Source: a virus. From it: a stretch of 55,917 nucleotides of DNA. Of this stretch, positions 5,886 to 55,115 are shown in pieces. Location of the stretch: positions 1 through 55,917 of the IMG/VR virus record IMGVR_UViG_3300044612_003253; one strand, 5' to 3'. The notes below the pieces were generated by a model, which was given only the letters and a program-made list of their open reading frames with translations, ran no database searches and was not told the origin of the DNA. Every line of letters starts with the position of its first letter. Within the stretch, counting starts at the first letter, position 1. The position numbers and the translations under genes are program-made.

Positions 5886-5914
5886 ATTATAGCCCGGTCG
5901 CGTTCAAATGTCAA
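5886..5914 (-). promoter_or_regulatory. Consensus sigma-70 promoter of ssb
   Basis: On the minus strand TTGACA (5914-5909) is separated by exactly 17 bases from TATAAT (5891-5886), both perfect matches to the host sigma-70 consensus. The ssb start codon is about 46 bases downstream of the -10 box. The -35 box overlaps the last codon of the polymerase C-half gene. The spacer is GC-rich, which stands out in this AT-rich genome. Confidence 0.9.
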
Positions 5915-22434: not shown

Positions 22435-22448
22435 ATTCCTTATTTGTC

Positions 22449-32447: not shown

Positions 32448-33692
32448 TTATATTTCTAATAACCCTGGAAATCTAGGATTTTGATCTTTAATTGCTATCA
32501 AATCAGCAAAAACAACGGGAATATTATTTATTTTCCACCAATCTGAAGGATAGTCTGTTTCTAATCTGAAAGCTTGAAATTTAATAGTATTATTTCTAAT
32601 ATATCTGGCTTGTTGTTCTTTAGTATAATACCAAAAGCTATTTTGATTCCAGAACGAAACGTGTGTAGGATCTTGAAATGCTCCTCTACCGTCTGTTGAT
32701 GGTACTTGTATAAAAGCCCATCCCCCATGAGCTAAAACTCTGTGTATTTCTTTCATTGTTTTATATGGATCTCGTAAATGCTCTATTATATGACTAGCAT
32801 TAACAACATAGCAGGAATTATCTGGCATTGGTATTCCATCGTTTAAGTCACAAATAATATCTGATCCCTCTTGATCAATTGATATGTATCCTTTTCTACC
32901 ATCTATACCTCCTCCTATATCTATCATTTTTAGATTTTTTAATTGAGCATCTCTTTCTGCAAGATTTTGAATCCATTTATTCCTAAGCTGTACTGTTCCT
33001 GTCTGTATCTCTTTATTCCTTTCTAGCCATGTATTTTCTCCATGTATCCTATAAACGTATAATGGTTCTGGTATGTGATAAAATTTAGTAATTAAATATG
33101 TTCTTATTATTAATTCTTGATCATCTAGTACAGACAAGTTATTATTATGGCCACCAACAGTATGATAAATTTCTTTTCTCCATGATCTAACATGATCTGG
33201 TGCAAACCATATTAATGATATTGAATGACTTGTTGCTCCAAATGATTGAGGAACCCATAAGCTTTTTCCATTATAGGATATTTTTTGGTGTTTCCATCCG
33301 TATGCTGTGTTATACGGTTTAAAGTTCTCGTTAAGTTTAGCATTATCAGAATATACAAATCCAACATCAGGATGATTCTCATATGCTTCTTTTAGTTTCT
33401 CTAAACATTTTGGTAACAAGATATCATCATGATCAACTTCTACTAAAATATCTCCGGTACCTAAATTAAATGCTTTGTTTTTATGATATCCTACATTAGT
33501 ATTATTAGAATAGTCACAATATATTTTAACTCTATTATCTTGTGTTAAAAAATTAAAATGATCATGCGTTGCAGATCCATTGATATATATAATCCATTCC
33601 CAATTTTGATAGGTTTGTTTAGTAATAGATTGATATAATTCTTGTATATATGAAGTATTTTTATGTGTGGGAGTTATAAGAGAAAATTTCAT
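32448..33692 (-). CDS. GT2 glycosyltransferase fused to a class I methyltransferase
   Basis: Residues about 1-240 form a GT2 domain: FSLITPTHKNTSYIQELYQS, GTGDILVEVDHDDIL (the DxD-type metal motif is DHDD), and YHTVGGHNNNLSVLDDQELI. From about 255 a SAM methyltransferase follows, MIDIGGGIDGRKGYISIDQ (motif I region), DNSCYVVNASHIIEHLRDP, and EIHRVLAHGGWAFIQVPS. The protein may attach and then methylate a sugar, or act on two substrates. It lies inside the virion block, next to fibre genes. Confidence 0.82.
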   Translation of the reverse strand: MKFSLITPTHKNTSYIQELYQSITKQTYQNWEWIIYINGSATHDHFNFLTQDNRVKIYCDYSNNTNVGYHKNKAFNLGTGDILVEVDHDDILLPKCLEKLKEAYENHPDVGFVYSDNAKLNENFKPYNTAYGWKHQKISYNGKSLWVPQSFGATSHSISLIWFAPDHVRSWRKEIYHTVGGHNNNLSVLDDQELIIRTYLITKFYHIPEPLYVYRIHGENTWLERNKEIQTGTVQLRNKWIQNLAERDAQLKNLKMIDIGGGIDGRKGYISIDQEGSDIICDLNDGIPMPDNSCYVVNASHIIEHLRDPYKTMKEIHRVLAHGGWAFIQVPSTDGRGAFQDPTHVSFWNQNSFWYYTKEQQARYIRNNTIKFQAFRLETDYPSDWWKINNIPVVFADLIAIKDQNPRFPGLLEI

Positions 33693-34395: not shown

Positions 34396-37380
34396 TTAAT
34401 CATTGATTATATATAATGTATTTGGATCGGGACTACTTATACTATCATAATTAGTTTGACTAAGTTGAACAATATTTGTAATATTACTGGCTCCTGTTAT
34501 TCCTGTTGTGTCGCTTACAATACACGAAGGGCATGAGCCTTGCGGGCCTTGGTCACCTTGGAAACCTTGATTACCATCATTTCCCTGATAACCTTGATCT
34601 CCTTGGTAACCTTGATCACCTTGGTAACCTTGATTGCCGTCATTACCTTGGTAACCTTGATCTCCTTGGTAACCCTGATCGCCTTGGTAACCCTGATCAC
34701 CTTGGTAACCTTGATTGCCGTCATTACCTTGGTAACCCTGATCGCCTTGGTAACCTTGTTCTCCTTGGTAACCTTGATTACCGTCATTACCTTGATAACC
34801 TTGTTCTCCTTGGAAACCTTGATTACCATCATTACCTTGATAACCTTGTTCTCCTTGGAAACCTTGATTACCATCATTACCTTGATAACCTTGTTCTCCT
34901 TGGTAACCTTGATTACCGTCATTACCTTGGTAACCTTGATCTCCTTGGTATCCTTGGTAACCTTGGTCTCCTTGGTAACCTTGGTCTCCTTGGTAACCTT
35001 GGTCTCCTTGAGATCCTCCATTTCCATCAGCGCCTTGAGCACCTTGATCACCTTGACTACCTTGATCTCCTTGGAAACCTTGATTTCCGTCCGGACCTTG
35101 AGAACCCTGGTTTCCGTCTGGTCCTTGATTGCCATCTGGACCCTGATTACCATCTGGACCTTGAAAGCCTTGGTTACCATCTAGACCTTGAAAACCTTGA
35201 TCTCCATCTGGGCCTTGGTTTCCAGAATCTCCTTGAGAACCTTGGAATCCAGTATCTCCTTGAAAACCCTGATCTCCTTGATATCCCTGATCTCCTTGTG
35301 GGCCACCACTTCCAGAAAAACCTTGTTCTCCTTGATATCCCTGATCTCCTTGGAAACCTTGATTACCATCATTACCTTGATAACCTTGTTCTCCTTGGAA
35401 ACCTTGATAACCTTGTTCTCCTTGGAAACCTTGATTACCGTCATTACCTTGATAACCTTGTTCTCCTTGGAAACCTTGATAACCTTGTTCTCCTTGGAAA
35501 CCTTGATTACCATCATTACCTTGATAACCTTGTTCTCCTTGGAAACCTTGATAACCTTGTTCTCCTTGATTACCTTGATCTCCTTGGAAACCTTGATTAC
35601 CTTGATCTCCCTTACTTAAAACTAATTGCCAATAACCAGGATATGACACAGGATCATAGCCTCCAGCACCAACAAAAGTGGTCATAACATACAATGAGCC
35701 ATCATATGTTATAGCTTGTCCTACTGAGTATGTTATTCCTCCATTATATGATCCTAAGTAATCAAAAGCTTGACTTCCTTGAGGACCAGCATCTCCTTGA
35801 TCTCCTTGAGAACCTTGGTTTCCTTGATTACCCTGACTACCTTGTTCTCCTTGGAAGCCTTGGTTTCCTTGTTCTCCTTGGAAGCCTTGGTTTCCTTGTT
35901 CTCCTTGAAAACCTTGGTTACCATCTGGACCTTGATTGCCATCTGGACCTTGATTACCAGAATCTCCTTGCGGACCTTGATTTCCAGCATTTCCTTGCGG
36001 ACCTTGATCTCCATCTGGACCTTGATTGCCATCTGGACCTTGATTACCGTCTGGACTACCTTGAAAACCTTGTGTTCCTTGTGCCCCTACTTCTCCTTGA
36101 AATCCTTGGTTTCCTTGATTACCTTGACTACCTTGCGGACCACCCAATACAGATACTCCATTACTATCTAAAATATCACCATCTATAGGTAATGTTAGAT
36201 CTCCGTCCGTATCAAAAATCCATTGATTATTATTATTATCTGTACCAACAACAACGTCTCCACCATTTTTTTCAATTTTGACATACTGATCATCATCACC
36301 TAAATAAATATCAACCGTTGCTGGATCTCCTGACACAAGATGAACATGACTATGTTCTGAATTAGATATGTCATTATTTGTTACGGTAATAAATTGACCA
36401 ATAGGCATAGCATTTTCTTCGAAGTCATAATATAAAGCAGGATCATTTTGTGTTTCTTCATTAGTTGATCTTGTTCCATCAACACTTGTTAGTGTTAGAG
36501 TAAATTCAGTAATATTACTATTAGCTGGTATTGTCCAAGTAATACTTTCTGCATCTGGACCGGTTGTACTTACGAAAGTTAGTTTACCAGTTAGTGCTCG
36601 ACCCAATGATTGTTCGGTAACTCCAGGACCAGAGATTGTATAGTTTACTGTTCCAAAATAAGCCCAGGTTTGTAAAGTAACTACAATAGTAATAGAATTA
36701 CCATATTCAATATAATTACTAGAACTAATTGCCCAAATAGCTGCGGTTGGACGAATTACTAAACTTTGTCCAGAGGCTGCTGTTGGAGGCATTAAAGATA
36801 CTGTATTATTTGTTTCACTAAGACTACCACCTAGTGGTAATGTTAAATTATGGTCTGTGGCGTCAAAAGTCCATCTATTAAAGGATGTAATTGAATTGCC
36901 GTCTAAAGTGTTCGTGATTTTATTCCCGATAAGAACGCCACTACTATTAACCTCAAGTTGATTTTGGCTAGTTAATACTGAGCTGCCGCCATCACCACTT
37001 ACGCTGTTAGTAACTCCGTTTGAAATAACGGTCTTAGCACCAACCACTTCGATTTGAGAGCCTGTTGATAGATATGTTCCTTCGCCAAGACTATTGACTA
37101 CCATATTACTAATAATACTATCACCAATAACTAACTCACCGTCTACACCAGATCCACCTATAGCTATTTGATTAAAAGTTACACTATTAAATGTATTTAA
37201 ATCTTGATCAAATGGGGTTATTCCACTTCCTCCACTAATAACGTTACTAATTTCACTCAAACTAATTTTTTTAGTAACTCCACTACCTGATGGTGATGGA
37301 TTGTCCATGAACACAAAAATATCATCATTTGATAGCGAACCACTACCTTCTGGTAGTTCGTTTATTCTAATAATAGGCAT
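34396..37380 (-). CDS. Collagen-like tail fibre protein (994 aa)
   Basis: A 994-residue fibre with a non-repetitive N-terminal part (start MPIIRINELPEGSGSLSNDD) and then long Gly-X-Y repeats, mostly GNQGFQGEQ and GYQGDQ variants. The repeats occupy about residues 413-530 and 593-950. A globular insert of about 60 residues between them (YNGGITYSVGQAITYDGSLY, then YPGYWQLV) resembles small chitin-type carbohydrate-binding modules. The C-terminus (SQTNYDSISSPDPNTLYIIN) matches the ends of many phage fibres. Collagen repeats in bacteria and phages form trimeric triple helices, so the product is probably a long trimeric receptor-binding fibre. Confidence 0.88.
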   Translation of the reverse strand: MPIIRINELPEGSGSLSNDDIFVFMDNPSPSGSGVTKKISLSEISNVISGGSGITPFDQDLNTFNSVTFNQIAIGGSGVDGELVIGDSIISNMVVNSLGEGTYLSTGSQIEVVGAKTVISNGVTNSVSGDGGSSVLTSQNQLEVNSSGVLIGNKITNTLDGNSITSFNRWTFDATDHNLTLPLGGSLSETNNTVSLMPPTAASGQSLVIRPTAAIWAISSSNYIEYGNSITIVVTLQTWAYFGTVNYTISGPGVTEQSLGRALTGKLTFVSTTGPDAESITWTIPANSNITEFTLTLTSVDGTRSTNEETQNDPALYYDFEENAMPIGQFITVTNNDISNSEHSHVHLVSGDPATVDIYLGDDDQYVKIEKNGGDVVVGTDNNNNQWIFDTDGDLTLPIDGDILDSNGVSVLGGPQGSQGNQGNQGFQGEVGAQGTQGFQGSPDGNQGPDGNQGPDGDQGPQGNAGNQGPQGDSGNQGPDGNQGPDGNQGFQGEQGNQGFQGEQGNQGFQGEQGSQGNQGNQGSQGDQGDAGPQGSQAFDYLGSYNGGITYSVGQAITYDGSLYVMTTFVGAGGYDPVSYPGYWQLVLSKGDQGNQGFQGDQGNQGEQGYQGFQGEQGYQGNDGNQGFQGEQGYQGFQGEQGYQGNDGNQGFQGEQGYQGFQGEQGYQGNDGNQGFQGDQGYQGEQGFSGSGGPQGDQGYQGDQGFQGDTGFQGSQGDSGNQGPDGDQGFQGLDGNQGFQGPDGNQGPDGNQGPDGNQGSQGPDGNQGFQGDQGSQGDQGAQGADGNGGSQGDQGYQGDQGYQGDQGYQGYQGDQGYQGNDGNQGYQGEQGYQGNDGNQGFQGEQGYQGNDGNQGFQGEQGYQGNDGNQGYQGEQGYQGDQGYQGNDGNQGYQGDQGYQGDQGYQGDQGYQGNDGNQGYQGDQGYQGDQGYQGNDGNQGFQGDQGPQGSCPSCIVSDTTGITGASNITNIVQLSQTNYDSISSPDPNTLYIIND
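34545..35610 (-). repeat. Tandem repeats encoding collagen-like Gly-X-Y units
   Basis: The DNA repeats a 45-base unit (15 residues, of the form GYQGNDGNQGFQGEQ) and shorter 18- to 27-base units, many nearly identical at base level. Recombination between copies is likely to change fibre length. A second, less regular block lies at about 35790-36150. Confidence 0.85.
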
Positions 37381-37692: not shown

Positions 37693-39072
37693 CTAAAGAC
37701 TATCAATATGAGGATAAGCATTACTGTTAGTACACCCAGCCTGATAATATGTGATTCCACTAATAGTTATAGTATCTTGTTCTGATCTAGGATCATCAAA
37801 ATCACAAACTGCTATTCTGGAAAGAACAGCATTAGTAGGAGGAGTTCCGGTTGTACTAATATATGGATTACCACATGGACTGCTAGCGTTAAATGTATAA
37901 CTATTATTCCATTCTCTAATATTCATTTGATTAGCAATTTCGTCTATTCTACAGAATAAAGCGAAATTTGTTCCAGCAGCAAATACTAATCCTACAATTT
38001 TTAACACACCTCCTATATCTGCTATTACAGCAGATCCAGAATCGCCACCAGCTACTGGATAATCTCCTCCATCTTCATATATAAAATATACAACATTATT
38101 AAATGTAATAACATGACTATCCATAGAAACAGAAGTAGATGCTCCAACTATATACGGAACAAGTCTACAAGATGGTGTTTCTGCCCACCCTTTTGGGCCA
38201 GTAGTTCTTCCAGTAGAGTATAATCTATTATTATTTACTAATAAATTGTCTATCTCTGATGTTGTAGCAAATGGTGGTCGCACTGTCATAGAAGGTAATC
38301 CGGATGGTTTGTGCATACCAAAAGACTGATTTGTTACTATATTATTATCTAAAAATAATACAGCACAATCAACAGTATTTGAACCTGTTTTTCTAAACGA
38401 AGAATACCTTTTGATTCTTGGACCAGAAAGGAACAGTCCGGTGGTATTAGTATCATTAGAGATAGAGCCTGGGGCCGCACTTATTGAGGGGTTTGGCGGC
38501 CAAGTTCTTTCTTCATATATATTATAAGGATCATTTATTTCTTGATTTTTTATTCTATCAGAAGCAACAAATGGATTATTACAAGCTATGTGAGCATTTG
38601 TTATTCCAACAATATTATTATCCACATTATCTATAGCTAAAAAACCCAGTGTCCCAACAGTAAACGACCATTGTGTTTCTCCTCCAACTATGGAAGAAGT
38701 GGCACCTGTTGGAAATTGGTATATTTCTTGTCCTCCTTTAACAGGATATAGAAACGCTGGATTCCCACGAAGTCTATTAATTTCACTATCTAATGGAGAT
38801 CTACTATAACATTCTATACCTGATGGTAAAGTTGATTGCTCGATAACATCTGTATTATAAGACTTATTTCCAATATTCACAGAAGATGGTAGTATCTCTT
38901 CAGGATTTAGTTCTGATAATGGTTTTTTCTTATAAACACTAAAGACTATACCTATTTCATTTGTTCTTTGATTGTTAACAAATTTATATCCTAATCCAAC
39001 AGAATGTACATTTTCTGGAGTATCATTATACAAATCTGGTATTTGAGATTTTAACGCTTCTGTTAAATTCAT
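37693..39072 (-). CDS. Trypsin-like (chymotrypsin-fold) serine peptidase
   Basis: A catalytic triad can be placed: H161 in VGITNAHIAC, D235 in TVDCAVLFLD, and S345 in VAGGDSGSAVIAD. VAGGDSGSA corresponds to the GDSGG active-site loop. At 459 residues it carries an N-terminal domain of about 120 residues and a C-terminal segment of about 90 residues beyond the peptidase. It is encoded between the Thr-Pro-linker protein gene and the collagen fibre. A role in cleaving adhesin or host-surface protein, or self-processing, is inferred. Confidence 0.75.
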   Translation of the reverse strand: MNLTEALKSQIPDLYNDTPENVHSVGLGYKFVNNQRTNEIGIVFSVYKKKPLSELNPEEILPSSVNIGNKSYNTDVIEQSTLPSGIECYSRSPLDSEINRLRGNPAFLYPVKGGQEIYQFPTGATSSIVGGETQWSFTVGTLGFLAIDNVDNNIVGITNAHIACNNPFVASDRIKNQEINDPYNIYEERTWPPNPSISAAPGSISNDTNTTGLFLSGPRIKRYSSFRKTGSNTVDCAVLFLDNNIVTNQSFGMHKPSGLPSMTVRPPFATTSEIDNLLVNNNRLYSTGRTTGPKGWAETPSCRLVPYIVGASTSVSMDSHVITFNNVVYFIYEDGGDYPVAGGDSGSAVIADIGGVLKIVGLVFAAGTNFALFCRIDEIANQMNIREWNNSYTFNASSPCGNPYISTTGTPPTNAVLSRIAVCDFDDPRSEQDTITISGITYYQAGCTNSNAYPHIDSL

Positions 39073-39081
39073 AATATTCTC

Positions 39082-40992
39082 CTAGTTATAATCTGTCCAT
39101 GCTACGAACATGGTTTTAAGTGCTATTGGTAGTGTTGGTGTTGGAGTCGGAGTTGGTGTTGGCGTTGGTGTTGCAGAAGCTCCTGGTGATTTTGTTGGTG
39201 TTGGTGTTAGTGTGGATGTTGGTGTGGACGTAGCCGTAGCTGTAGGCGTTAACGTGGCTGTTGGTGTTGGTGTTGCTGTGGCCGTTGGTGTTAACGTTGC
39301 TGTGGCCGTTGGTGTTGGCGTTACTGTGGCTGTTGGGGTTGGCGTTGGTGAAGACGGATTTGAGCTTAAGCATGTAAGATATATAGCATCGAGATTAGCA
39401 AATGCTGGATCATTATAAATGATATTTGTAATTGTATATTGTAAATCATCAAGAATTATTGTTATAGGATGATCATCTGATATAAATTGTATAGTTTCTC
39501 CAATTATAAAATTACCATTTGGTATAGTTAAAACAGTTTCTATAATTCTTGGAGGGTCGTTAAGGAGCTGTATAATTTGCCACGATGCTCCAGATGTTAA
39601 TCCGCTGATACTTCCTGGCATACCTATACTTCCTCCTGGCGGAACTACAGATATTGGCCATTTCCAATTTTCATCACATATATAATTATTAGAAGATGCT
39701 GTAGGTGTAGGAGTTGGTGTTTTGGTTGGAGTTGGAGTTACTGTTGATGTTGGAGTTGAGGTTGCTGTTGGTGTTGGAGTATTTGTTGCTATTGGACACG
39801 ATAAATGTAAAGTGTCACGTCCATCATTATTTATGTCGTTCAGAATAATATTATTAATTATATATTCGCCAATTAAAGGAATATTAAGAATATTAGGAGT
39901 TTTAACTGTTATAGATATCGTTTCTCCAACAGTAAAAGACAATGAATTGGTTGATGTTCCAACTCCACGGATAACTCTATATGGACTAATATTGGCATAA
40001 AGCCCAGTGTCGTTTCCTGCATCAGACCATATAGCTCCAGAGGTTAGTCCAGAAATTGATCCGTTAGTATTGATCTGTTGCCATCCGTTAAAACAAGATA
40101 TGTCCGGATTAAAATAAGTAGAAGTTGGGGTCGGAGTCGGTGTTGAAGAAGATCCGGGAGATTTTGTTGGAGTTGGTGTTAGCGTGGCTGTTTGTGTTGG
40201 CGTTATTGTGGATGTTGGTGTTGAGGTTACCGTTGGTGTAGGAGTTGAGGTTTGTATTGGCGGACAATTATTTGATGATACAAAACTAGAAATCAATTGA
40301 TCTTTAACATATCCTTGAACAACAACATCTGAACTAACTCTCCACTCTCCAAATATCTCGTTAGCATAAAATGAATCTATATAATTCATATTAATTTTCC
40401 ATAAATTATGTTCATTATCATAATAAATATAAGTATTACTATTTATATCAATCCAAGTTTTTGAACCATAATATTTAAAAGTAAGATTATCAATACAAAT
40501 TATACACCCATTAATATCTGTCCTTGGAAAAGAGCAACCATATAACGTATATGGATATGGAGCTGGACTATCGCATATCTGTGCATTATTCTGTTCAGAT
40601 TGATTTATTATATTTGTCTCTATATTTTTACTATAAAAATTTTTATTAAGAGCATATACTATAGATAATTTTTGATCGCATATATCATATTTAGCAGATT
40701 GGGGGCTTTCTCTAAAATCTCCTTTTGCTAGATTAAAGCCATTATTCCTAAAAGAGGTCGATGTCAAATCTATATATAGAGATTTAGATTCGTTTATTCC
40801 ATTAGTTTTAGGAATAGATGTTTTATTTTTATTTATGGTCGGATCGAATTCTATATTTTCATTACCATATGCTGAATATTTTTCATTATATGTTTTTTGG
40901 TATTGTTTTGATAATATTGGTTTATCATTAATGTTTGTCTCTGATATTATTCCTGAAATATCTGTAGGCTTAGGATTAAAAATATATGACAT
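39082..40992 (-). CDS. Modular virion-type protein with Thr-Pro-rich linkers
   Basis: This 636-residue protein alternates globular beta modules (one with SCFNGWQQINTNGSISGLTSG, another with a related GGSIGMPGSISGLTSG) with long Thr-Pro-Ser repeats such as TPTPTKSPG and TATPTPTATLTPTATAT. The two globular modules share FxIGETIxxxx and the ending IxNIIxNDxxxxxxDxxxLxC, so they are duplicates. The C-terminus (IALKTMFVAWTDYN) may be a further short module. Linkers of this kind are common mucin-like, O-glycosylated spacers. The gene stands between the FGE-like adhesin and the trypsin-like peptidase. Confidence 0.6.
   Translation of the reverse strand: MSYIFNPKPTDISGIISETNINDKPILSKQYQKTYNEKYSAYGNENIEFDPTINKNKTSIPKTNGINESKSLYIDLTSTSFRNNGFNLAKGDFRESPQSAKYDICDQKLSIVYALNKNFYSKNIETNIINQSEQNNAQICDSPAPYPYTLYGCSFPRTDINGCIICIDNLTFKYYGSKTWIDINSNTYIYYDNEHNLWKINMNYIDSFYANEIFGEWRVSSDVVVQGYVKDQLISSFVSSNNCPPIQTSTPTPTVTSTPTSTITPTQTATLTPTPTKSPGSSSTPTPTPTSTYFNPDISCFNGWQQINTNGSISGLTSGAIWSDAGNDTGLYANISPYRVIRGVGTSTNSLSFTVGETISITVKTPNILNIPLIGEYIINNIILNDINNDGRDTLHLSCPIATNTPTPTATSTPTSTVTPTPTKTPTPTPTASSNNYICDENWKWPISVVPPGGSIGMPGSISGLTSGASWQIIQLLNDPPRIIETVLTIPNGNFIIGETIQFISDDHPITIILDDLQYTITNIIYNDPAFANLDAIYLTCLSSNPSSPTPTPTATVTPTPTATATLTPTATATPTPTATLTPTATATSTPTSTLTPTPTKSPGASATPTPTPTPTPTPTLPIALKTMFVAWTDYN
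39116..39360 (-). repeat. Thr-Pro-coding low-complexity repeat
   Basis: A G- and T-rich run on the plus strand encodes TPTPTATATLTPTATATPTPT-type linkers on the minus strand. Similar runs lie at about 39706-39786, 40117-40257 and 44928-45320. Slippage and recombination could vary linker length. Confidence 0.75.
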
Positions 40993-41016: not shown

Positions 41017-43953
41017 TTAAATATTTGGAATAATACCATGACCAGTACTTGTAGCAGTTACCCATCCGGGTAAAGCATTACTTTGAGTAGCATAAGTCCA
41101 ATAGTTAGATGATGTGTTATTTGAATTTGTTCCAGCATAATATGCTGCTTTATACCATTCGTTTTCATCAGGAATAAAATATAGAGCACAATCAGATCTT
41201 AAATATCCACTTATGCTAGTATTAAAAGAGGATGAATTATTATCAAATTGATATACTCCACTTTGCTGAAATTTCCAACCACTCTGTTTATTGTTATGAA
41301 GCCAATTAATATATCTACAAGCCATTTTTCTATTAATAAATCTTACCGGCTTATATAACATATTATTTTGTGTTGTAAAAACATAAGGACTAGCTAATGT
41401 TCCACTACCAGATCTATCTATTCCTCCATAACATCCGCTCATGTATGGATGATAAACAAACGGAATCACTTGACTGGATTGGTTAGCATTTCCGTTATAT
41501 CCTGTGGTTGCTGTGCTATTTAAAAATTGTGTATATTCTCCATTATTTACTGGATAAATACCTATTTGATATGAATAATTAACAGATCCATAACCAGTAT
41601 CAGAATCGCTATGATTTCCTGTTGGAGGAGAACCTATATCTGTTATTGGTATCATACCACTAAAATTATAAGGATTAGTATATGATCCTACTCTAAATCC
41701 AATAAAATCATTATAATTATTATTCGTATCAGTATCAAATAAAAATCTAGCATATTTACCAATAATTGTACTGTTAAATGAACCTCCCCTGTAGACATAT
41801 CCGCTTTCGCTTACTGAATTAGGAACATAACAAAGCTCTAAAATATTACCATCTTGATCATATGTCCCATAAGAGCTTGGTCCCCCATTTGTTCCAACTC
41901 TTGTAACACTAGCAAATCTTCTCAGTTCTGGAGCCTTTCCTGGACAATCTGACGCACAATATCCCCATATTGATCGATTATTATAGTTTGCATAATTTTG
42001 ATAAGCATTATCACAATTTTCTAAACATCTAACAGCTATATAGTTTGATATGCTATAAGGAATATCTACTCTAGATAGTTGTACTTTTGCTATAGCATTA
42101 GAATTATTGTTTAGAGCGAATAAAGAAGTGATTCTATTAGGATTACCACTACCGCCTCCAAATGATACTCTTCCACTATTAGGCATAAAGATGACGCCAG
42201 AAGTATTAGAAGATAAAACAAAAGAATATACTTTACCCGGCTGAGGATCTGTAACATTCATTATTAATGGGACATATTGATCACATAGACCACCACTAAT
42301 ATTAATTATATTTTGTGATAATGGAGATTGAAAAATTATACTAGTTTTATCTAATTGAGAAATAGTTGGTAATGAATTTTGATCTGCTGATATTCTTATA
42401 GAATCACTACAGTCTGGACAATAGTCTGTAGATATATTTAAATTTAAATTATTATAAATATTTATATCTTTATAAATTCTTAATTCATCTTGTTCTAAAT
42501 TATTATAATCTAAATTAGTATTAAAAATAACTGTTTCATGTATATCGTTTGGTTTTAATTTTAACACAGCATTAACATAAAAAGTATCAGAGGATGCAGT
42601 AAACGATCCAGAAAAAGGTTCTATTTTGCTTGGCCAGTTCGATCCTTGTGAAGAAAATCCATAAAAATATTTTTGTCCTATATTTAAATTTGAGATCTTA
42701 GCTTTAATTGGAAAAATATAATTACCAGATGATCCAGTAGACAGTTCTTCTAAAGAAACGGATGGACAATAGTTTTTAGCCAAAGAAGAATTATATTTAT
42801 TATACCAATTAGAATCTATAGAATTTTCTATAAAATACTTAATATCTCTTTTATTTATAAAACCATCAACAATATCATTTCCTGTCAATAATAATGGAAT
42901 AGTTTGTTCTGATGAAGACTGATATTCTGACGATATTACATCTCCATTGGAGTCACATATTACAGCAGATGGAGGTTCGTCACTTTTTGTTCCGTATGTC
43001 CAGTATTTATTTATCGATGAGTCATAGTATGCTGCTTTATACCATTCATTTTCGCTTGGTAAAAAATATTTTGCTGTATCTTGTCTATAACAACCTGATA
43101 TGCTTATAGGATTATTGTATAAAGACGCTGTATCATATGATCCTGATGTTATACTTAAAATATCGGAAGATTTATCATTCGTAAGCCAATTGCAATATTG
43201 TGCAGCCATTATCCATTTGATGAATGTAACCGGTTTATCTGCAAAATTATTTTTAATAGAATATTTATATCCTATATCATTACAGTTATCATATATGATA
43301 CCACCAACAGATGATGTGTCCATTCTTTCATCATAAATATGATATTTTTTAGATCCAGAAGGATCAATAGAGTTTAAGTAATCACAATATTCTGTATTTG
43401 TAACTAATTGATTTTGTATATTGTATGTATAATTAACTTGACCTAATTTAGAATCTAAACCATATTCGCAGTTATCTGGTTCATTTTCTATGTCTGATAT
43501 TGTGGTATATATACTACTAGGATCTAATGGGTTTGCTGTACTTGATGATTCATTGTTTGCAACTCTGAATCCTATACATCCATAATCAAGCATTGAAAAA
43601 ATATCAAAATGCTTATTTTGTGTTTTGCTTAGATTATTATGGTCATTATCTGCAAAAGATCCACCTCTTAGTATTTTAAGATTGTTATCCTTATTAGATA
43701 AACCAGATTTGAATAATGACGATGATGGTGATGGTAATTTTGAAAAGGGGCAGGAGTCGGTCCATTGATATACTTGGCCCGCCATATCGTATATATTATA
43801 TGCTGATGCACTACCATTTAATCCTGTTGTAGTAACATTACCATTGGCAGAATTATTCCAATTAGCTAATTTTTTATAATTAGCTGTATTATTTGTAGAA
43901 TTTTTTGGTTCTATATTAATTACTAATTCTATATTAGAGTATATACTATTCAT
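41017..43953 (-). CDS. Adhesin-like protein with circularly permuted FGE/SUMF1 modules (978 aa)
   Basis: Residues about 24-133 are the C-terminal half of a formylglycine-enzyme-like domain (NIYDMAGQVYQWTD, ILRGGSFADND, CIGFRVAN). Residues about 170-330 are the N-terminal half (VNYTYNIQNQLVTNTEYCDY, KPVTFIKWIMAAQYCNWL, YFLPSENEWYKAAYY), so the order is inverted. A second copy in the same inverted order occupies about residues 655-978 (YDQDGNILELCYVP, GFRVGS, ENEWYKAAYYAG). Beta modules with NWPSKIEPFSGSF lie between them. The fold probably binds a receptor like C-type lectins. I see no conserved catalytic cysteine pair. Confidence 0.7.
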   Translation of the reverse strand: MNSIYSNIELVINIEPKNSTNNTANYKKLANWNNSANGNVTTTGLNGSASAYNIYDMAGQVYQWTDSCPFSKLPSPSSSLFKSGLSNKDNNLKILRGGSFADNDHNNLSKTQNKHFDIFSMLDYGCIGFRVANNESSSTANPLDPSSIYTTISDIENEPDNCEYGLDSKLGQVNYTYNIQNQLVTNTEYCDYLNSIDPSGSKKYHIYDERMDTSSVGGIIYDNCNDIGYKYSIKNNFADKPVTFIKWIMAAQYCNWLTNDKSSDILSITSGSYDTASLYNNPISISGCYRQDTAKYFLPSENEWYKAAYYDSSINKYWTYGTKSDEPPSAVICDSNGDVISSEYQSSSEQTIPLLLTGNDIVDGFINKRDIKYFIENSIDSNWYNKYNSSLAKNYCPSVSLEELSTGSSGNYIFPIKAKISNLNIGQKYFYGFSSQGSNWPSKIEPFSGSFTASSDTFYVNAVLKLKPNDIHETVIFNTNLDYNNLEQDELRIYKDINIYNNLNLNISTDYCPDCSDSIRISADQNSLPTISQLDKTSIIFQSPLSQNIINISGGLCDQYVPLIMNVTDPQPGKVYSFVLSSNTSGVIFMPNSGRVSFGGGSGNPNRITSLFALNNNSNAIAKVQLSRVDIPYSISNYIAVRCLENCDNAYQNYANYNNRSIWGYCASDCPGKAPELRRFASVTRVGTNGGPSSYGTYDQDGNILELCYVPNSVSESGYVYRGGSFNSTIIGKYARFLFDTDTNNNYNDFIGFRVGSYTNPYNFSGMIPITDIGSPPTGNHSDSDTGYGSVNYSYQIGIYPVNNGEYTQFLNSTATTGYNGNANQSSQVIPFVYHPYMSGCYGGIDRSGSGTLASPYVFTTQNNMLYKPVRFINRKMACRYINWLHNNKQSGWKFQQSGVYQFDNNSSSFNTSISGYLRSDCALYFIPDENEWYKAAYYAGTNSNNTSSNYWTYATQSNALPGWVTATSTGHGIIPNI

Positions 43954-43955
43954 AG

Positions 43956-46211
43956 TTATGCCGGTGTTGATGATGGTGTGTTGGTTGGTGTCGGTGTAGG
44001 TGTTGCTTTTAACAAATTAGCATTCTGTCCTCTAACAGCATCTGCGCAAAATTCAAAAATATTAGATATAGTCGCTTCATGATCTATATTTGGTATAATT
44101 GTTCCTGATAATGGATATATGGAGCATGCTTGATTAGCATTTTTAAGTCTATAATGATATGTTATATTGTATTTATCTGGATCAGGTAGTCCTAGTAATG
44201 AAATGTCTATTTGTTGAATTAAGCTACCGCTACCAGAAACAGGTATGGTATAAGAATTTGTATTAATATCTATAGATAGCAATTCATTATAATTATTGAT
44301 AGAGTTATTTGAAATATAATAATCTAAACAATTATTTTTTATATGAATAGTTTTATCACAATGATTATCTTGTCTATTATATTCAGATATAATATTTTGT
44401 AATAAGGCTTCTAGTTCTTTCTGTTGGCCTAAATTAAATTTATGTGATTGTATATCTTTCTTGAGTACCTCTATGGCAGCAATATAAGATATTGGACTAT
44501 TAAGATTCAAAGTTTTAATTTGTGTTTCATTTATAGATAAAGATCTTATTTCATTTATTAAATTATTAGATAAATATTCAGATTTTAATGTATTTATAAT
44601 AGGCAATCTTAATGGGAATTTTGCATCATTTTTTGTTATAAAATAATAAGACTCTCCAGGATCTAAAGATGTCAATGTTGACTTATCGTTTGGAATAATC
44701 TGATTTCCACTAGCTGTTGTATTGAAGAATAATAAACTATTTGATGATTTATATATAGTTGATATATTGTTTATAAAATTATGCCAGTCTTTAACAATTT
44801 CATTATGATTACTTAATCCTGTTGGAGGAAACAATAAAGACATATTTGGCATAGCATTTGATGGATATTCTTTAATGCTATATACTTTATCTAAAATTTC
44901 AGGATTTGAACATGGTTCTTTAGATGGAGTTAAAGATATGGTTGGAGTGTTAGTTGGGGTTCTTGTTGGTGTCTTTGTTAACGTAGGAGTAACAGTAGGT
45001 GTTCTTGTTGGTGTTCTTGTTGGAGTTTTTGTCTGTGTTTTAGTTACCGTTATCGTTGGTGTTGTAGTAACGGTTGCCGTTGGTGTTCTTGTTGGAGTTT
45101 TTGTTGGAGTTACTGAATGTGTTGGGGTTACTGTTGCAGTATTTGAAACTGTTGGCGTTAATGTTTGTGTTACGCTAATTGTTGGTGTTAAACTAGTAGT
45201 AGGAGTTAAAGTTGACGTTGGTGTTGGAGTTTGACTAGCGCCAATACTTTGGGTTGGTGTTGGAGTTTGAGTCTTAGTAGGAGTCACTGATATTGTGGGT
45301 GTAGGAGTTTGTGTCGGATCCAGATTAGTAACTCCACCACTACCTATACTACTATCGAAAGGGACACAACCAATAGAACCAACCGGACAAGGAACACTAT
45401 CGCTTTGTGTCGCATAAGTCCAGTATGAACTATTATTAGAATTATAAAAAGCTGCTTTATACCATTCATTTATTGTTGGAATAGCATATATTGCATTTAT
45501 ATTTCTATTAAAAATAGTATTTTCTACTATAGTATATGCACCAGAATTTATATTTGTAGATGATGCATTATGTAGCCAATTGCACATTCTAGCAGCACTA
45601 ACAAAAGAAACATAGTTAACTGGTTTATTTGCGAAATTTGTTTTTGTTACATACTTCGATCCTGCTGGATTGGTTGTAACTAAATTTATTCCTCCTCTAG
45701 GATTATTTGCCCCATTAGATAATTTTGACATTAAACTAGAATAGAGTCCGTAAATATTTGATCCATTTGGATCGACAGCATTTAAAAAATTAATATATTG
45801 ACTATTGGTTACGGGCTTTATCATTATTCTGTAATTATAAGAAACAGAACCATACCCAGTTCTAGGATCGTTAATATTATTAGAATCAGATATGTCTATA
45901 CAAGATAGATTATCGACAGAGGTGAAACTTATAAGTCTCAAACCAATATTATTTGATATTGTTGAATATCCAATCGTATTTTTACCATAGCAGGATAATG
46001 AATTACTGTCAGTATTCCATGATCCACCAAAGATATCAGCATATATTAAACTATCAATTTCATTTAATGATTCTATCCATTCCCATACGTTTCCTGATTG
46101 ATCTAATGTCCCATATGAACTAGGCATACCATTATTACCAACGGATGTTACATTACCATTAGCTCCATTCCATACTGCTTCACTATTATAGTTAGCGCTA
46201 TTATAGGACAT
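43956..46211 (-). CDS. Adhesin-like protein with permuted FGE module and Thr-Pro linker (751 aa)
   Basis: Residues about 1-105 hold the C-terminal half of an FGE/SUMF1-like domain ([37 protein letters not shown]). Residues about 115-285 hold the N-terminal half ([60 protein letters not shown]). A Thr-Pro-Ser linker of about 130 residues follows, then a module with [17 protein letters not shown] and a last beta module ([15 protein letters not shown]), ending in a short Thr-Pro tail. No enzyme residue is obvious. It adjoins its relative at 41017-43953 by 2 bases. Confidence 0.7.
44928..45320 (-). repeat. Thr-Pro-coding repeat of the 751-residue adhesin
   Basis: About 390 bases of tandem short units encode [15 protein letters not shown]-like sequence. 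Copies share several 12- to 18-base blocks, so length variation by recombination is likely. Confidence 0.7.
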
Positions 46212-46223
46212 AAATTTTCCCTG

Positions 46224-47876
46224 TTATGTTGGTAATGTTGGTATTTTATTGGGGCATCGTAAAATTATATTATCTACAGCATAAGTGTTTGTTGTTGGAT
46301 CAGATATTACTAATCTAACTGTGGTGCCAGGTCTATTATTTAGGTTATATACAGCTCCAATCTTTCCAACACCGTTTCCAAACGAAATTGTTCCAGATAA
46401 AGGGGTAATTGACACGAGACTATTACTATTATATAATCTATAATTGTATTGTTTGCCACAGCAAGCACCGCTTATGGTTGCCATGAGTATTTGATCTTTA
46501 TTACAGCATAATGTATCAGATAAATTAATTTCGGATCCTGGTCTACTATTTTCTGTTAGCCCGCCAGACGGATAAGTATTATCTGTACCATCAAATTTAA
46601 CATATAGACTATCTATACAATCTTCATTTTGAGATTCTATATCTCCTTTTATAATTATTGAATCTCTATAAATATTGTTTGATGATTCATTAATAGATAA
46701 ACTTAAAATTGTATATATATTTTTATCTATAAATTTTTCATCATAAAATGGCTCTAAATTATATTGTAAATTAGGCCATGAATTAAATGGATTATATACT
46801 GGAGACATTGTAAAACTAGTTTCTATAACTCCTGTACCATAGACCATCTCAGATTCAGCATCTTCATACATAGATTCTGGTCTAATAGTTTGTGTCTTTG
46901 GTAAAATTCTGCATGGCCAATTACCACCAACAGAGAATAATCCATAGGTATAAGTTTTCGATGGATCTAATCCAGAGTAATTTATATATATTGGAATAGA
47001 TCCGCTGCATGAAGCTTGATTTATATCGTCAAAACTTCCAGCAATAGTAGATAGTTTAAATTTTGGATTTTTTCTATTTGTATTTGGTAAGCATTCATTA
47101 CATTTTATGTTTATTGTATCATTAAGAAGTAAGTCCATGTTTTCTGAATAAAGAGATATATCTAATATAGTAAAAATATTTTTATAATAAAAATTACTAT
47201 TAAGATCAATATTCAGATCATACGGAATACTATTAAGATAATTATCTCCGCTTGGATAATAACTAAATAAAGATTTAATAATGCCATTAGTAAATCCAGA
47301 TTGATTAATTGTATTTGATCCTTGTATATATCCTGAGAGCGAAGATAATTTTGCTGGCCAATTAGAATATACTGGTTTTATCTCATAAAAATATGTTTCA
47401 GTGGGTAGTATATTTTCTATTTGCAGATTAATATCATATATATAGTTTTCATTTAATTTTATATCTCTATATGATTTATCTACAATATTTGGTTGTCCGT
47501 AACAGGAAACAGATTTAGAACATTCTGAATTATTATTACAATATTGAGTGTTTAAAAATTCTTCTGAATCAATATTTTTTGGAATAATTAATGGTAAATT
47601 TTCTTCTGATAATAAAACAATATAATATGTTTGTCCTGGATCGAGACTACTTAACGTGCTATTTGTATCAGGCTCTCTTTGTGTTGTTGATGGAATTACT
47701 TTCGTAAAAAATATTGGTATGGTATTATCAAATTTGGTTTGACCATATATATATAATACATTATTAATAAATTTATAATAATCTGATCGATCTTTAGAAT
47801 TTACAGGACTATTGAATAAATCAAATGATGTTTCGCCATCATATTTAAATATTGCAGTTTTAGAATATATGATCAT
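46224..47876 (-). CDS. Multi-module beta-rich virion-type protein (550 aa)
   Basis: This 550-residue protein contains an N-terminal module ending STLSSLDPGQTYYIVLLSEE, also found in the 751-residue neighbour. At least three beta modules of the form LxPxxxYxYxxxxxxxNWPxxIxPxSGxI follow: LPTETYFYEIKPVYSNWPAK, then SKTYTYGLFSVGGNWPCRIL, then GKQYNYRLYNSNSLVSITPL. This pattern suggests tandem Ig- or fibronectin-like domains in a virion appendage. No enzymatic motif is seen. A candidate promoter box lies at 47917-47928. Confidence 0.6.
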   Translation of the reverse strand: MIIYSKTAIFKYDGETSFDLFNSPVNSKDRSDYYKFINNVLYIYGQTKFDNTIPIFFTKVIPSTTQREPDTNSTLSSLDPGQTYYIVLLSEENLPLIIPKNIDSEEFLNTQYCNNNSECSKSVSCYGQPNIVDKSYRDIKLNENYIYDINLQIENILPTETYFYEIKPVYSNWPAKLSSLSGYIQGSNTINQSGFTNGIIKSLFSYYPSGDNYLNSIPYDLNIDLNSNFYYKNIFTILDISLYSENMDLLLNDTINIKCNECLPNTNRKNPKFKLSTIAGSFDDINQASCSGSIPIYINYSGLDPSKTYTYGLFSVGGNWPCRILPKTQTIRPESMYEDAESEMVYGTGVIETSFTMSPVYNPFNSWPNLQYNLEPFYDEKFIDKNIYTILSLSINESSNNIYRDSIIIKGDIESQNEDCIDSLYVKFDGTDNTYPSGGLTENSRPGSEINLSDTLCCNKDQILMATISGACCGKQYNYRLYNSNSLVSITPLSGTISFGNGVGKIGAVYNLNNRPGTTVRLVISDPTTNTYAVDNIILRCPNKIPTLPT

Positions 47877-49271: not shown

Positions 49272-49952
49272 TTATTTTTTTAGCTTAATATGATCTATAA
49301 ACATATGTAAACTGTGTATATTGAATAATCTAATACCATATAATTCGGCCATTTTGATGATGCTATTTACCTGTTTGTCATTATATATATTTCCTGTAGC
49401 TATAGTATTAATTTTACTTTTATTCATCAAAAAATTACATGCAATTAAATTGTCATGAATATCATCAATCATAGTTCCAGAAGAAGGTAGAATAGTATTG
49501 ACACCATAATCCATTAATATTTGACAAACTTTCGCCAATACATCATGATTATATATACGATATTCTAATATATATCTTAATTGAATATTAAATTCATTAC
49601 ATATTTCTAAATTTGTTTTAATATCATCTCTAAATTTATCATATTTTCGATTAGTGATAATCTTTGTAGGTATAAACAAATCTATATTAGTTATTAAATT
49701 ATTATATGTTTTGCATAAGCTGGACACTGCAAAAGATCTTGTTTTAAGATCAGAAACGCCAAGAGGAAAGTCTATTGGGCATGATATGCTTATATTTTTA
49801 TCTTTAATATCGGATATAGACCTAAGCGTATTTAAAGTATACGGTAATACAGAAATATTGGTTATACCATATTTAATGGCATCTGTTATGTTTTTGGTTG
49901 TCTCGATTTCATTAATAGAATAATCTAGACAAGCATATTCTGTATAAATCAT
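49272..49952 (-). CDS. DeoC-like TIM-barrel protein lacking the catalytic lysine
   Basis: The strand order resembles deoxyribose-phosphate aldolases: ISCPIDFPLGVSDLKTRS (the GFPLG element), then NIDLFIP with the conserved aspartate (D91), then YILEYRIYN, then GVNTILPSSG, which sits where active DeoC enzymes have VKTSTG. The Schiff-base lysine is replaced by a hydrophobic residue, so aldolase activity is unlikely. At 226 residues it has the family length. It abuts the ClpP-like gene by a 4-base overlap. Confidence 0.55.
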   Translation of the reverse strand: MIYTEYACLDYSINEIETTKNITDAIKYGITNISVLPYTLNTLRSISDIKDKNISISCPIDFPLGVSDLKTRSFAVSSLCKTYNNLITNIDLFIPTKIITNRKYDKFRDDIKTNLEICNEFNIQLRYILEYRIYNHDVLAKVCQILMDYGVNTILPSSGTMIDDIHDNLIACNFLMNKSKINTIATGNIYNDKQVNSIIKMAELYGIRLFNIHSLHMFIDHIKLKK

Positions 49953-50626
49953 AATTTTTTAGCATAATGTTTTATATAGTCTATATTTGGAAACTGTCTT
50001 GAACCCAATATGCCGTCTGCAAAACCATAATCTACTGCTTCTGGTGCTGTAAGTATCCAATCACATTTATTAGCAATTTGAGATACTATATGTTTTTTAG
50101 CAATCATTTTTTTCCATTTTTTTTCTTTAGCTATCTTACTTGATATACACCTATTTGTGAATATATCAATCATCTTATCGCATTCTTGCTCGTTCCATTG
50201 AACAGAACTTGCTGCTGCTTTACTATGTTCTTCATTAATACTAAATGATCCATAATGTATCAATACATTGGTATTTGGCATTAAAATTCTTAGATCTGCT
50301 GATTGAAGAAGCACACTACTTGAAGATTCAGCTTTAGCATAAGCTAATATTATTATATTACATGTACATGATTCTATTGTATCATACATACCCAAGCAAT
50401 CTTGCCATTCTCCTCCAGGTAAATGCATATGTACCAATATAGGATCCATCGATAGCATATTCAGATATCTAATATTTTTTTCAAAAACTATAGCACTTCT
50501 ATAGTCAACGCCACCCTCAACATCTCCATCAGAAATATAAGAATGCAAATAGACTTCTCTATTTTGAATATCTATATTGTAATTATGGATATAGTCTATA
50601 TCTTGTATTTCTTTATTTATTTTCAT
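49949..50626 (-). CDS. ClpP-like peptidase
   Basis: This 225-residue ClpP/crotonase-fold protein has LVHMHLPGGEWQDCLGMYDT, then YAKAESSSSVLLQSADLR, where S101 aligns with the ClpP nucleophile, and PNTNVLIHYGSFS, which supplies H124. PEAVDYGFADGIL provides the acid. The catalytic-serine surrounding is a serine cluster rather than the usual ASMGA. Phage ClpP-like proteins serve as prohead or scaffold proteases or may act on host proteins. It is coupled to the DeoC-like gene and to the upstream acidic protein gene. Confidence 0.72.
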   Translation of the reverse strand: MKINKEIQDIDYIHNYNIDIQNREVYLHSYISDGDVEGGVDYRSAIVFEKNIRYLNMLSMDPILVHMHLPGGEWQDCLGMYDTIESCTCNIIILAYAKAESSSSVLLQSADLRILMPNTNVLIHYGSFSINEEHSKAAASSVQWNEQECDKMIDIFTNRCISSKIAKEKKWKKMIAKKHIVSQIANKCDWILTAPEAVDYGFADGILGSRQFPNIDYIKHYAKKL

Positions 50627-51059
50627 TATCTTGCACTATTTCGTAAATAGTATCCTGAATATTTTTTTTAACTTCAGAGTCATAAAATGCTTTGCCTATT
50701 GCAACTCTAAATCTATACCTTGTAAAAATATCTAAACATTCTACTCCATTTATTTGTTCTATCGTTTCTGAAATTTTTCTTGTGATATCAAAATTAGTAT
50801 GACCAATCCAAAAATTAAAAAGCTTTCCACTAGCTGTATTTTCATTAACTGGTATTATACCCATTGGAGTAGCAATAACTTTTATTTGTTTTTTGCCAAA
50901 ATTATTTAATATAGTGTCAAATTCTTCATTTGCTCCGTCTTCTTCTTCATCATCATAAAAATTACTATATGGTTCTTCATCAATATCATTATCGTCTTTT
51001 TCTCCAAATGGATCTCTCCATTTTTCCCACATAATGATTTTTCTTTCAGTTTTATTCAT
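50613..51059 (-). CDS. Conserved acidic phage protein
   Basis: A 148-residue protein with a highly acidic segment (EKDDNDIDEEPYSNFYDDEE) and a C-terminal block TPMGIIPVNENTASGKLFNF with GVECLDIFTRYRFRVAIGKAF. I recall this block in other phage proteins but cannot give it a function. The true start may be the tenth codon (MWEKWRDPFGEK); neither start has a clear ribosome-binding site. It overlaps the ClpP-like gene by 14 bases. Confidence 0.5.
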   Translation of the reverse strand: MNKTERKIIMWEKWRDPFGEKDDNDIDEEPYSNFYDDEEEDGANEEFDTILNNFGKKQIKVIATPMGIIPVNENTASGKLFNFWIGHTNFDITRKISETIEQINGVECLDIFTRYRFRVAIGKAFYDSEVKKNIQDTIYEIVQDNENK

Positions 51060-51086
51060 TTTATTATCACAGAGAGATCAAATCTA

Positions 51087-51482
51087 TTATATCTTAAATA
51101 CTCTAGATGGCTTGACTACAGGTTGGTTATATTCTATATGATTTTTTTTATTCTTTTTGTATTGCTCATATAATAATCCCCAAAATCCTATAATATTGTC
51201 TATAAATAAATATTGCTGAGAATTATTTTGGTCTATTTTAGACTGCAAAATAGTAACCATATTAGTTTTATGAAAACCTTGATTTATTGATAATAAAAAC
51301 TCAGCGTATCTTTCTGCTAATATAGCTATATTTTCTGGAGTTGCCTTGGACATATCAGGAAGATCAATATTAATATCAATAGAGTAGTTATCTAATAAAG
51401 AAAAATTAATAGAACCGATAACTCCATGTTTATGCTTTTTTTTATGCCATGTTAGTAATTTTTCTAAGTAATGGGTAATCAT
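51087..51482 (-). CDS. Hypothetical phage protein
   Basis: A 131-residue protein with a lysine-histidine start (WHKKKHKHG), strands such as YSIDINIDLPDM and a helical middle (ENIAILAERYAEFLLSINQG). No family is recognised. It overlaps the upstream Nudix-like gene by 41 bases. Confidence 0.45.
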   Translation of the reverse strand: MITHYLEKLLTWHKKKHKHGVIGSINFSLLDNYSIDINIDLPDMSKATPENIAILAERYAEFLLSINQGFHKTNMVTILQSKIDQNNSQQYLFIDNIIGFWGLLYEQYKKNKKNHIEYNQPVVKPSRVFKI

Positions 51483-51792
51483 ATATAAGATTTTCTGTAT
51501 AAAGTTTATAGCAATTTTTAAGTTCTATATTATATGGTATTAAGCAAAAATATGAAATAATAACATTTTTATTTTCTATTCTTGGTTCAAGATGGACAAA
51601 CTTAATATAATCAGCAGATAAAGAAATATAATTTTCTAGTAATTCTGATAATATTGTATTTAGATTAATATCATTTTCATTAATATCTTGAGACAAAACA
51701 ATAAATTTTTCTGAATGAGTAGATAATACTTGATATTTTTGTTTATCTCTATCTAATATCAAGCAATATATTTCAAGTATACATTTTGTCAT
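51442..51792 (-). CDS. Nudix-fold-like protein without catalytic box
   Basis: The order of elements recalls Nudix-type domains: a first strand (CILEIYCLILDRDKQKYQVL), a helix (TILSELLENYISLSADYIKF), and a late strand (VHLEPRIENKNVIISYFCLI). The Nudix box with its GxxxExxE acids is missing, so it is unlikely to hydrolyse nucleotides. Some such domains act as ligand sensors for regulators. It overlaps the sigma-factor gene by 20 bases and so is probably co-translated. Confidence 0.4.
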   Translation of the reverse strand: MTKCILEIYCLILDRDKQKYQVLSTHSEKFIVLSQDINENDINLNTILSELLENYISLSADYIKFVHLEPRIENKNVIISYFCLIPYNIELKNCYKLYTENLIYDYPLLRKITNMA

Positions 51793-52378
51793 AGGTTTTA
51801 ATGGTCTCGATAGCTCTTTTTATACTTTGTCTTACTGCCTCACGAGATACTCCAAAGTGCTTACCTATTTTTGATAGAGTTAGATTTTCAAAATAGTACA
51901 TAATAATTTGCTGTTTTTGTTTTTCTGAAATATTTGCATTATTTAATAATTCATTGATATTTTTTGAAACTTCTTGTTGTTCTTCTTTCTCTATAATTTT
52001 TTCCAAAGGATCTTTTTCTGATGATGAAGCTAATAAATCATAGGCATTAACATGCTCTTCTATAGAGCTCAAATTATTATCTAAGCTTAGAGATTTTTTA
52101 TTTTTATTTTTATATTTATGCGTAACATATGTTTTTATAGCCCATATTGCACACTGATTCCTATAAGAATAGAGAGTCTTTTTGAGTCCACTTTTACCAG
52201 ATCTTTCAGGATCAAATCTCCAATCAGCATACATTATAGCAGTAGCAACATCAGATACAGCTTCTTCGTTTGCTAACATTTCTTTCGCTAGTCCATTGTA
52301 AAATCTTGGTGCGAATTTAGATATAGTTTTTTTTGCTAAAGATACATATATAGACAGAGTATCAAATTCAGTATTCAT
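51773..52378 (-). CDS. Phage sigma factor, sigma-70 type
   Basis: This 201-residue protein has a region-2-like block (ATAIMYADWRFDPERSGKSG, then LKKTLYSYRNQCAIWAIKTY) and a region-4 helix-turn-helix (LTLSKIGKHFGVSREAVRQS). It could bind RNA polymerase and direct it to phage promoters, like T4 gp55. It lacks region 1 and a clear region 3. It is a plausible reader of the GGTGTAT boxes found in this window. Confidence 0.75.
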   Translation of the reverse strand: MNTEFDTLSIYVSLAKKTISKFAPRFYNGLAKEMLANEEAVSDVATAIMYADWRFDPERSGKSGLKKTLYSYRNQCAIWAIKTYVTHKYKNKNKKSLSLDNNLSSIEEHVNAYDLLASSSEKDPLEKIIEKEEQQEVSKNINELLNNANISEKQKQQIIMYYFENLTLSKIGKHFGVSREAVRQSIKRAIETIKTYDKMYT

Positions 52379-54053: not shown

Positions 54054-55115
54054 TTAAAATATACACCTCAAAATAGAGTCAGCAGTATTTGACCAAGTAT
54101 ATTTATTGGCCGTTATAACTCCATTGGTATTTGTTGTGATTCTATTAGCATATGAATATCTCATATAATGGATTATTTGGTCTATTTGTTTTGGTCCTAT
54201 TTTTGCCCAATTACCCTGACCATTAAATGCTTTATTATCAAATGCTTTCTCTGTTGAATCAATATCCACAAGCATACAATTGCTATTATCACAAAATTCA
54301 GTATGAGCAGAGTAATTAGTTGCTATTGTAGGTTTATTCATTGCCATTGTTTCTAATAATTCTAAATTCCACCCTTCTGCTCTAGATGGGTACAGTCCAC
54401 AATCAGAGTTTGCTATTAATTGAGCAATTTCGTACTGATTATCTACGCCATTAAAAAGTTTGATTCTGGAATCAGTTGAATATATTTCTTTCCATGTTTT
54501 TAATTCATTCTCGTTAGAATAGTTATTTGTTTTTTCAGATGCTAGGATCCATAATTCGACATCATCTTCTGTTGGAAAAGCATCCTTAAAAACCTTATAG
54601 ATAAAATCATGACCTTTTCTAATTTCCCATTTTCCAATATTTAAAAAGACATATTTATTATCTCTTCTTGTCTTTTGAATTTTTTGATAATCAAAAATTT
54701 TGCAATCAACACCAAGTGGAACTATTTCGGTTAGTGTTGAAACATTATCTTGTATAATATTTTTAGCCCATTGACTAGTTGCAAAGATTACATCAGGCAC
54801 ACTCAAACTCATTTGTTCTTGACTATTGAATGTGTCTAGTTCAAAAAAAGGAAATGCATAATATTGACCTCTTCCAATATGTTCTAGTAAATCAAACTGA
54901 TGCCATATTTTAATATGTGGTGAATTAACATCAAATTTTAATCTTCTATTATACATCTGAACAAGCATCTTTTGATCTTGTTCCGAATTTATTGATGGAT
55001 TTCCTATTGGAAAATAGATTATGTCTTGTTCTTTTGCATATAAAGATTTTAATATATTTATGGATGCTAGTCCATAACCAGTATTATTTACAGGACAAGA
55101 TATTGCTATGCTCAT
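54054..55115 (-). CDS. GT4-family glycosyltransferase
   Basis: This 353-residue GT-B glycosyltransferase has NNTGYGLASINILKSL at the start, DVIFATSQWAKNIIQDN, VPLGVDCKIF, YVFLNIGKWEIRKGHDF, and the donor site YPSRAEGWNLELLETMAMNK (E-x7-E). It should transfer a sugar from a nucleotide donor in the cytoplasm. It overlaps the GMP-reductase-type gene by 4 bases, which is an odd partner. Confidence 0.82.
   Translation of the reverse strand: MSIAISCPVNNTGYGLASINILKSLYAKEQDIIYFPIGNPSINSEQDQKMLVQMYNRRLKFDVNSPHIKIWHQFDLLEHIGRGQYYAFPFFELDTFNSQEQMSLSVPDVIFATSQWAKNIIQDNVSTLTEIVPLGVDCKIFDYQKIQKTRRDNKYVFLNIGKWEIRKGHDFIYKVFKDAFPTEDDVELWILASEKTNNYSNENELKTWKEIYSTDSRIKLFNGVDNQYEIAQLIANSDCGLYPSRAEGWNLELLETMAMNKPTIATNYSAHTEFCDNSNCMLVDIDSTEKAFDNKAFNGQGNWAKIGPKQIDQIIHYMRYSYANRITTNTNGVITANKYTWSNTADSILRCIF
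54056..54067 (-). promoter_or_regulatory. GGTGTATATTTT box upstream of the 222-residue protein
   Basis: GGTGTATATTTT on the minus strand overlaps the last codons of the GT4 gene and lies about 35 bases before the ATG at 54032. It is one of the repeated GGTGTAT boxes. Confidence 0.4.

Follow-up and report, generated by a model that had tools for sequence, protein, structure and literature searches.

Two adjacent genes with a rotated domain order

Two adjacent genes on the minus strand, at 41017-46211 of the window (the whole stretch of viral DNA analysed here, 55 917 nucleotides), encode putative adhesins of 751 and 978 a.a., and both proteins are assigned to the FGE-sulfatase family (PFAM ID: PF03781), the higher of the two scores being 94.8 bits and the lower 51.8 bits against a cut-off of 23.3. 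The matches to the Pfam profile come in rotated order in the 751-a.a. protein and in the first module of the 978-a.a. protein (Table 1). We built separate profiles for the N-terminal (N) and C-terminal (C) halves of the domain, the N half being subdivided into segments a and b; these half-profiles also detected the C half of the third module (C3), which scores under the Pfam threshold. Segments C, a and b are all retained, in the order C-a-b and with nothing lost, and the C half precedes the N half in all three modules of the window. A preliminary description of this DNA had claimed that both genes begin with the C half and that the pattern occurs three times, once in the 751-a.a. protein and twice in the 978-a.a. 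protein; the Pfam profile and the half-profiles bear out the order and the count, the FGE-sulfatase search having given the rotated order rather than the ordinary one. Its details hold too, although some of the motifs are present in degenerate form (FGGSW, GLRLI and GQVYQW).

Table 1. Genes and domain halves in the tail-fibre region of the window
Feature	Position	Strand	Evidence
Collagen-like tail fibre with Phage_tail_C tip domain	34396..37380	-	Pfam, PHROGs
Neighbouring 636-a.a. protein with TP-rich linkers	39082..40992	-	ORF, PHROGs
978-a.a. protein: permuted modules C2-N2 and C3-N3, ~300 a.a. apart	41017..43953	-	ORF; Pfam PF03781, E 8.9e-27
N3, N-terminal half, residues 768-977, end of 978-a.a. 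protein	41023..41652	-	Half-profile; Pfam 34-129
C3, C-terminal half, residues 646-757 of 978-a.a. protein	41683..42018	-	Half-profile
Inter-module region, residues 343-645 of 978-a.a. protein, without Pfam match	42019..42927	-	Pfam, half-profiles; low-confidence model
N2, N-terminal half, residues 150-342 of 978-a.a. protein	42928..43506	-	Half-profile; Pfam 36-140
C2, C-terminal half, residues 15-132 of 978-a.a. protein	43558..43911	-	Half-profile; Pfam 143-254
751-a.a. protein: C1-N1 as its one permuted FGE-like module, then TP-rich linker and C-terminal region	43956..46211	-	ORF; Pfam PF03781, E 1.2e-13
Thr/Pro-rich low-complexity linker, ~residues 300-432 of 751-a.a. protein	44916..45314	-	Sequence
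N1, N-terminal half of FGE-like domain, residues 106-296 of 751-a.a. protein	45324..45896	-	Half-profile; Pfam 36-137
C1, C-terminal half of FGE-like domain, residues 2-95, start of 751-a.a. protein	45927..46208	-	Half-profile; Pfam 149-254
550-a.a. protein directly upstream, family unassigned	46224..47876	-	ORF, Pfam, PHROGs

Elsewhere in uncultured phages, a permuted-domain gene (in contig L007) adjoins genes of tail-fibre proteins, and RCC1, laminin-G and propeller domains are found in neighbouring or longer family members. A protein encoded at 37693-39072, after the tail fibre of the window and before its adhesin-like genes, has a weak match to a protease PHROG. In a phage related to the window (L030, 2637-7424), the counterparts of the 751-a.a. 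gene and of the first module of the 978-a.a. protein are fused into one ORF of 1595 a.a.

Permuted modules in phages and normal-order relatives in bacteria

A scan of viral contigs with a window protein returned one relative that is 83% identical, an independent phage whose 543-a.a. protein has just one permuted module, and one bacterial-type protein of normal order. An alignment-based scan gave 111 relatives, the majority colinear with the permuted query, and a half-profile survey of loci found 70 C-N proteins and 13 C-N-C-N proteins (counts that include overlapping loci), plus longer arrays. After three further scans the collection from uncultured phage contigs contained 120 distinct C-a-b modules, 116 of them at <90% identity; recurrence in about 116 distinct modules confirms that the C-N order is not a product of chance. 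Pfam alone gave FGE matches in 19 out of 19 related phage records tried, several of which are longer than 150 kb and have just one C and one N match.

The preliminary description had proposed a search for homologues with the normal order, and such homologues were found in bacteria: the best 80 of the bacterial genome loci listed hold 76 N-C proteins and nine N-C-N-C proteins, and a scan with the half-profiles found no C-N protein among these 80, beyond which permuted copies may exist in bacteria. Secreted PF03781 proteins of Planctomycetota and Verrucomicrobiota share conserved segments with the phage modules (∼30-48% identity), but the order is N-C, or N-C-N-C in tandem, in the copies of bacteria and C-N in those of phages. 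Neither the window proteins nor two other modules had a tblastn match in the INPHARED phage records, so we can name no phage relative from that collection. Annotation with colinear profiles gives two partial matches and misses the domain as a unit, and the permuted family is therefore hidden from such tools. A review reports that C-type-lectin FGS domains were not found in jumbo phages (PMC7824862), and in the open-access literature, which leaves out most subscription papers, we found no account of phage FGE or C-type-lectin domains with a permuted order.

The C-N module as the likely unit

Two readings of the rotated order had been left side by side in the preliminary description: the permuted domain could itself be the unit, or halves of neighbouring modules could fold together. 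The C-to-N joint within modules is short (9-50 a.a., median 12, in 105 modules), as against an N-to-next-C spacer between modules of 49-1251 a.a. (median 421, 20 cases). The distances of the two halves also co-vary more tightly within a module (r of 0.62 and 0.60) than across modules, either in the normal-order register (0.41) or for a C half against the next N half (0.48; 17 pairs throughout). An AlphaFold2 run that used 73 permuted modules modelled the module of the window as a compact single domain (pLDDT 93.7, pTM 0.92), so that the permuted chain is predicted to fold as one compact domain. Short joints against long spacers, together with the compact model, favour one C-N module as the unit.

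If the halves paired between modules instead, domains of ordinary order would be split across spacers or genes (N1 with C2, N2 with C3) and the rotation would be an effect of register. The stretch from N2 through the spacer to C3 in the 978-a.a. protein does read in normal order, and in three phage proteins of C-N-C layout the N half could pair with either C half; but eight proteins of <345 a.a. consist of one permuted module and little else (some of them start at a contig end), complete stand-alone permuted proteins of 311-325 a.a. exist in viral contigs, and neither these nor long contigs with a single C and a single N only (e.g. G011, G017 and G025) offer another half to pair with. Added to the compact single-module model, the contrast of joint and spacer lengths and the tighter within-module correlation, this makes the split-domain arrangement very improbable. 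Pairing of the halves is not visible in the full-length model of the 978-a.a. protein, which is weak (pTM 0.42). We consider it similarly improbable that C-N modules fold only through strand or domain swapping between the subunits of a homo-oligomer (e.g. a trimeric fibre): the tail-fibre context would suit such swapping and the model in hand is of a monomer, yet that monomer is already compact and confidently predicted.

Comparison of the modelled C-N module with PDB chains (VIA-align) gave matches to separate halves. Model residues 97-300 correspond to the front part of the FGE-like chains 5aoh, 2y3c, PorK, PvdO and FGE, and residues 1-97 to the back part in EgtB-IV, Mtd and TaqVP; the best structural match is 5aoh with a Z of 6.8, the Z values being modest and the matches half-wise. 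A profile search of PDB likewise found the inverted order in 5aoh. In the predicted model the halves thus match separately and in reversed order, as those of a circular permutant should when the aligner is sequential. No significant structural match was found in BFVD. Mtd is a phage receptor-binding protein. Its residues 266-374 align to the C half of the model (Z 3.8, 2.5 Å, 81 residues), as does TaqVP; both are variable proteins of diversity-generating retroelements with the C-type-lectin fold, but have the normal topology, unlike the permuted module. The halves also align, separately, to FGE enzymes and to EgtB-IV/OvoA sulfoxide synthases, in which the order of the halves differs.

Some permuted domains carry large inserts in their loops (L015, 11200-15333; L059, 3399-12587; L054, 1-3540), either a beta-propeller or a complete FGE domain of normal order; insertion of domains is thus tolerated by the fold.

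Further cut points and mixed orders

The C-a-b order is not the only rotated one. Two contigs from different metagenomes (L070 and L286) encode b-C-a modules, which start with YW(L/I)PS.DEWYK and end with GAYPL.GA.SGI.LK; in L286 the same polypeptide later includes an ordinary permuted module as well. A third cut lies inside segment b in three contigs (L225, L227 and L228), where YATQSD or YATRSN opens the module and the chain closes with EWYKAAYYLPTV and a stop. Mixed orders are found too: L034 encodes a permuted domain next to one of normal order, and L059 has a normal-order domain placed within a loop of a permuted domain. It is probable that at least four cyclic orders of one fold exist (a-b-C as the normal order, C-a-b as the dominant one, b-C-a and the cut inside b), three of them in related phages, that orders are mixed within one polypeptide (L034, L059 and L286), and that the C-N-C proteins resemble frozen intermediates. 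If so, the phages would offer a natural series for how permutation happens and what a phage gains from it, a possible gain being that the attachment point of a receptor-binding domain is moved.

All these contigs are metagenomic and L070 sits at a contig end, as could be expected if the rotated order were an artefact of assembly or binning; the chance of this is negligible, as the order is repeated in many independent contigs (including the relative that is 83% identical to the window protein), the second cut point occurs in two contigs and the third in three.

Origin of the permutation

When the halves are concatenated in canonical order, all C-N modules fall on one side of a single branch, with SH-aLRT support of 75 (73 when re-rooted and 77 in a smaller set) in quick tree searches. 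The nearest normal-order domains in the tree are those of Planctomycetota and Verrucomicrobiota. A single origin of the C-N modules is likely as judged from this tree, in which branch support is moderate (73-77). The phage-borne normal-order domains of L034 and L059 group with the bacterial normal-order ones, so they look separately acquired and not like reversions.

We infer that the main permutation began with a bacterial normal-order domain, which was probably duplicated in tandem (N-C-N-C) and then lost its ends. The old N and C termini would thereby have been linked by a short linker, and the loop that leads from the YWTYATQSD segment to the NYNS..AVW segment would be where the new termini lie. 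Every C-N module would form one compact domain, mounted like a bead in long proteins with Thr/Pro-rich linkers whose genes probably belong to the tail-fibre region of large uncultured phages. The N-C-N-C proteins of bacteria and the C-N-C layout of three phage proteins (L296, L298 and L299) would fit permutation by duplication and trimming, and the surviving cut points and apparent intermediates would allow a direct test of this model.

Natural circular permutations are known already, concanavalin A and saposin/swaposin being the classical cases. There, as here, the old termini are joined and the new termini lie in a loop; unlike there, the permuted order is the prevailing one in a large family of phage domains, for which at least two more cut points exist. 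On the sequences collected, the permuted form of this family dominates in phages and the parent form in bacteria. We regard it as very likely that the modules are genuine circular permutants of the FGE-sulfatase domain (SUMF1/EgtB-like and related to C-type lectins), with the origin proposed here and the binding role discussed below. Phages would thus provide a natural experiment in which a protein fold is cut and rejoined.

A putative binding role

In FGE enzymes the C half holds a pair of copper-binding cysteines (CxxxxC), and metal sites are present both in these enzymes and in EgtB-IV/OvoA. A motif search found CxxxxC in one out of 78 permuted C halves and in none of 88 normal-order bacterial relatives; since the bacterial set is also without the motif, the loss does not go together with the permutation. 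The missing copper cysteine pair favours an adhesive or receptor-binding role in the tail fibre over catalysis, and we infer that the modules most likely bind ligands or receptors at the virion surface and are non-enzymatic. By profile they do belong to the FGE-sulfatase family, which could mean that they are working enzymes, akin to formylglycine or sulfoxide synthases, with proteins of the phage or the host as targets of modification, but the near-absence of the motif in both sets and the presence of multiple copies within long linker-rich proteins make that highly improbable. If the C-N modules bind receptors, permutation may let phages re-mount the binding domain on the fibre.

Variability among related phages at exposed residues had also been proposed for inspection. 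The RGG-GFR segment is highly variable, but no more so than in normal-order bacterial domains, so special diversification is unsupported and hypervariability was rejected as a phage-specific trait. Diversification by a diversity-generating retroelement found no support either: no reverse transcriptase (RVT_1) was found in 47 related phage records, which may be fragments.

Other genes of the window

The DNA polymerase of the window is split in two genes (5911-7527 and 8395-10227, matching positions 51-609 and 611-1054 of PHROG 405), with an RNase_T-type exonuclease gene between the halves (7520-8221). A class I ribonucleotide reductase is encoded at 20785-23423; among named phages its large subunit is closest to those of Agrobacterium phage Atu_ph07 and Sinorhizobium phage Phosso (58-59% identity), a similarity to jumbo phages of Agrobacterium and Sinorhizobium that is too weak to name a host. 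The T4-type capsid protein Gp23 was discarded as a lineage marker, being found in only one out of 30 records. Genes at 24001-26437, 32448-33692, 3713-5377 and 54054-55115 specify several glycosyltransferases, including one fusion with a methyltransferase, and also an RgpF-like protein. The gene order of a block at 49272-52378, which includes a ClpP-like protease (49949-50626), looks shared with L020 (599-3355), so the window seems to be part of a wider lineage of large uncultured phages.
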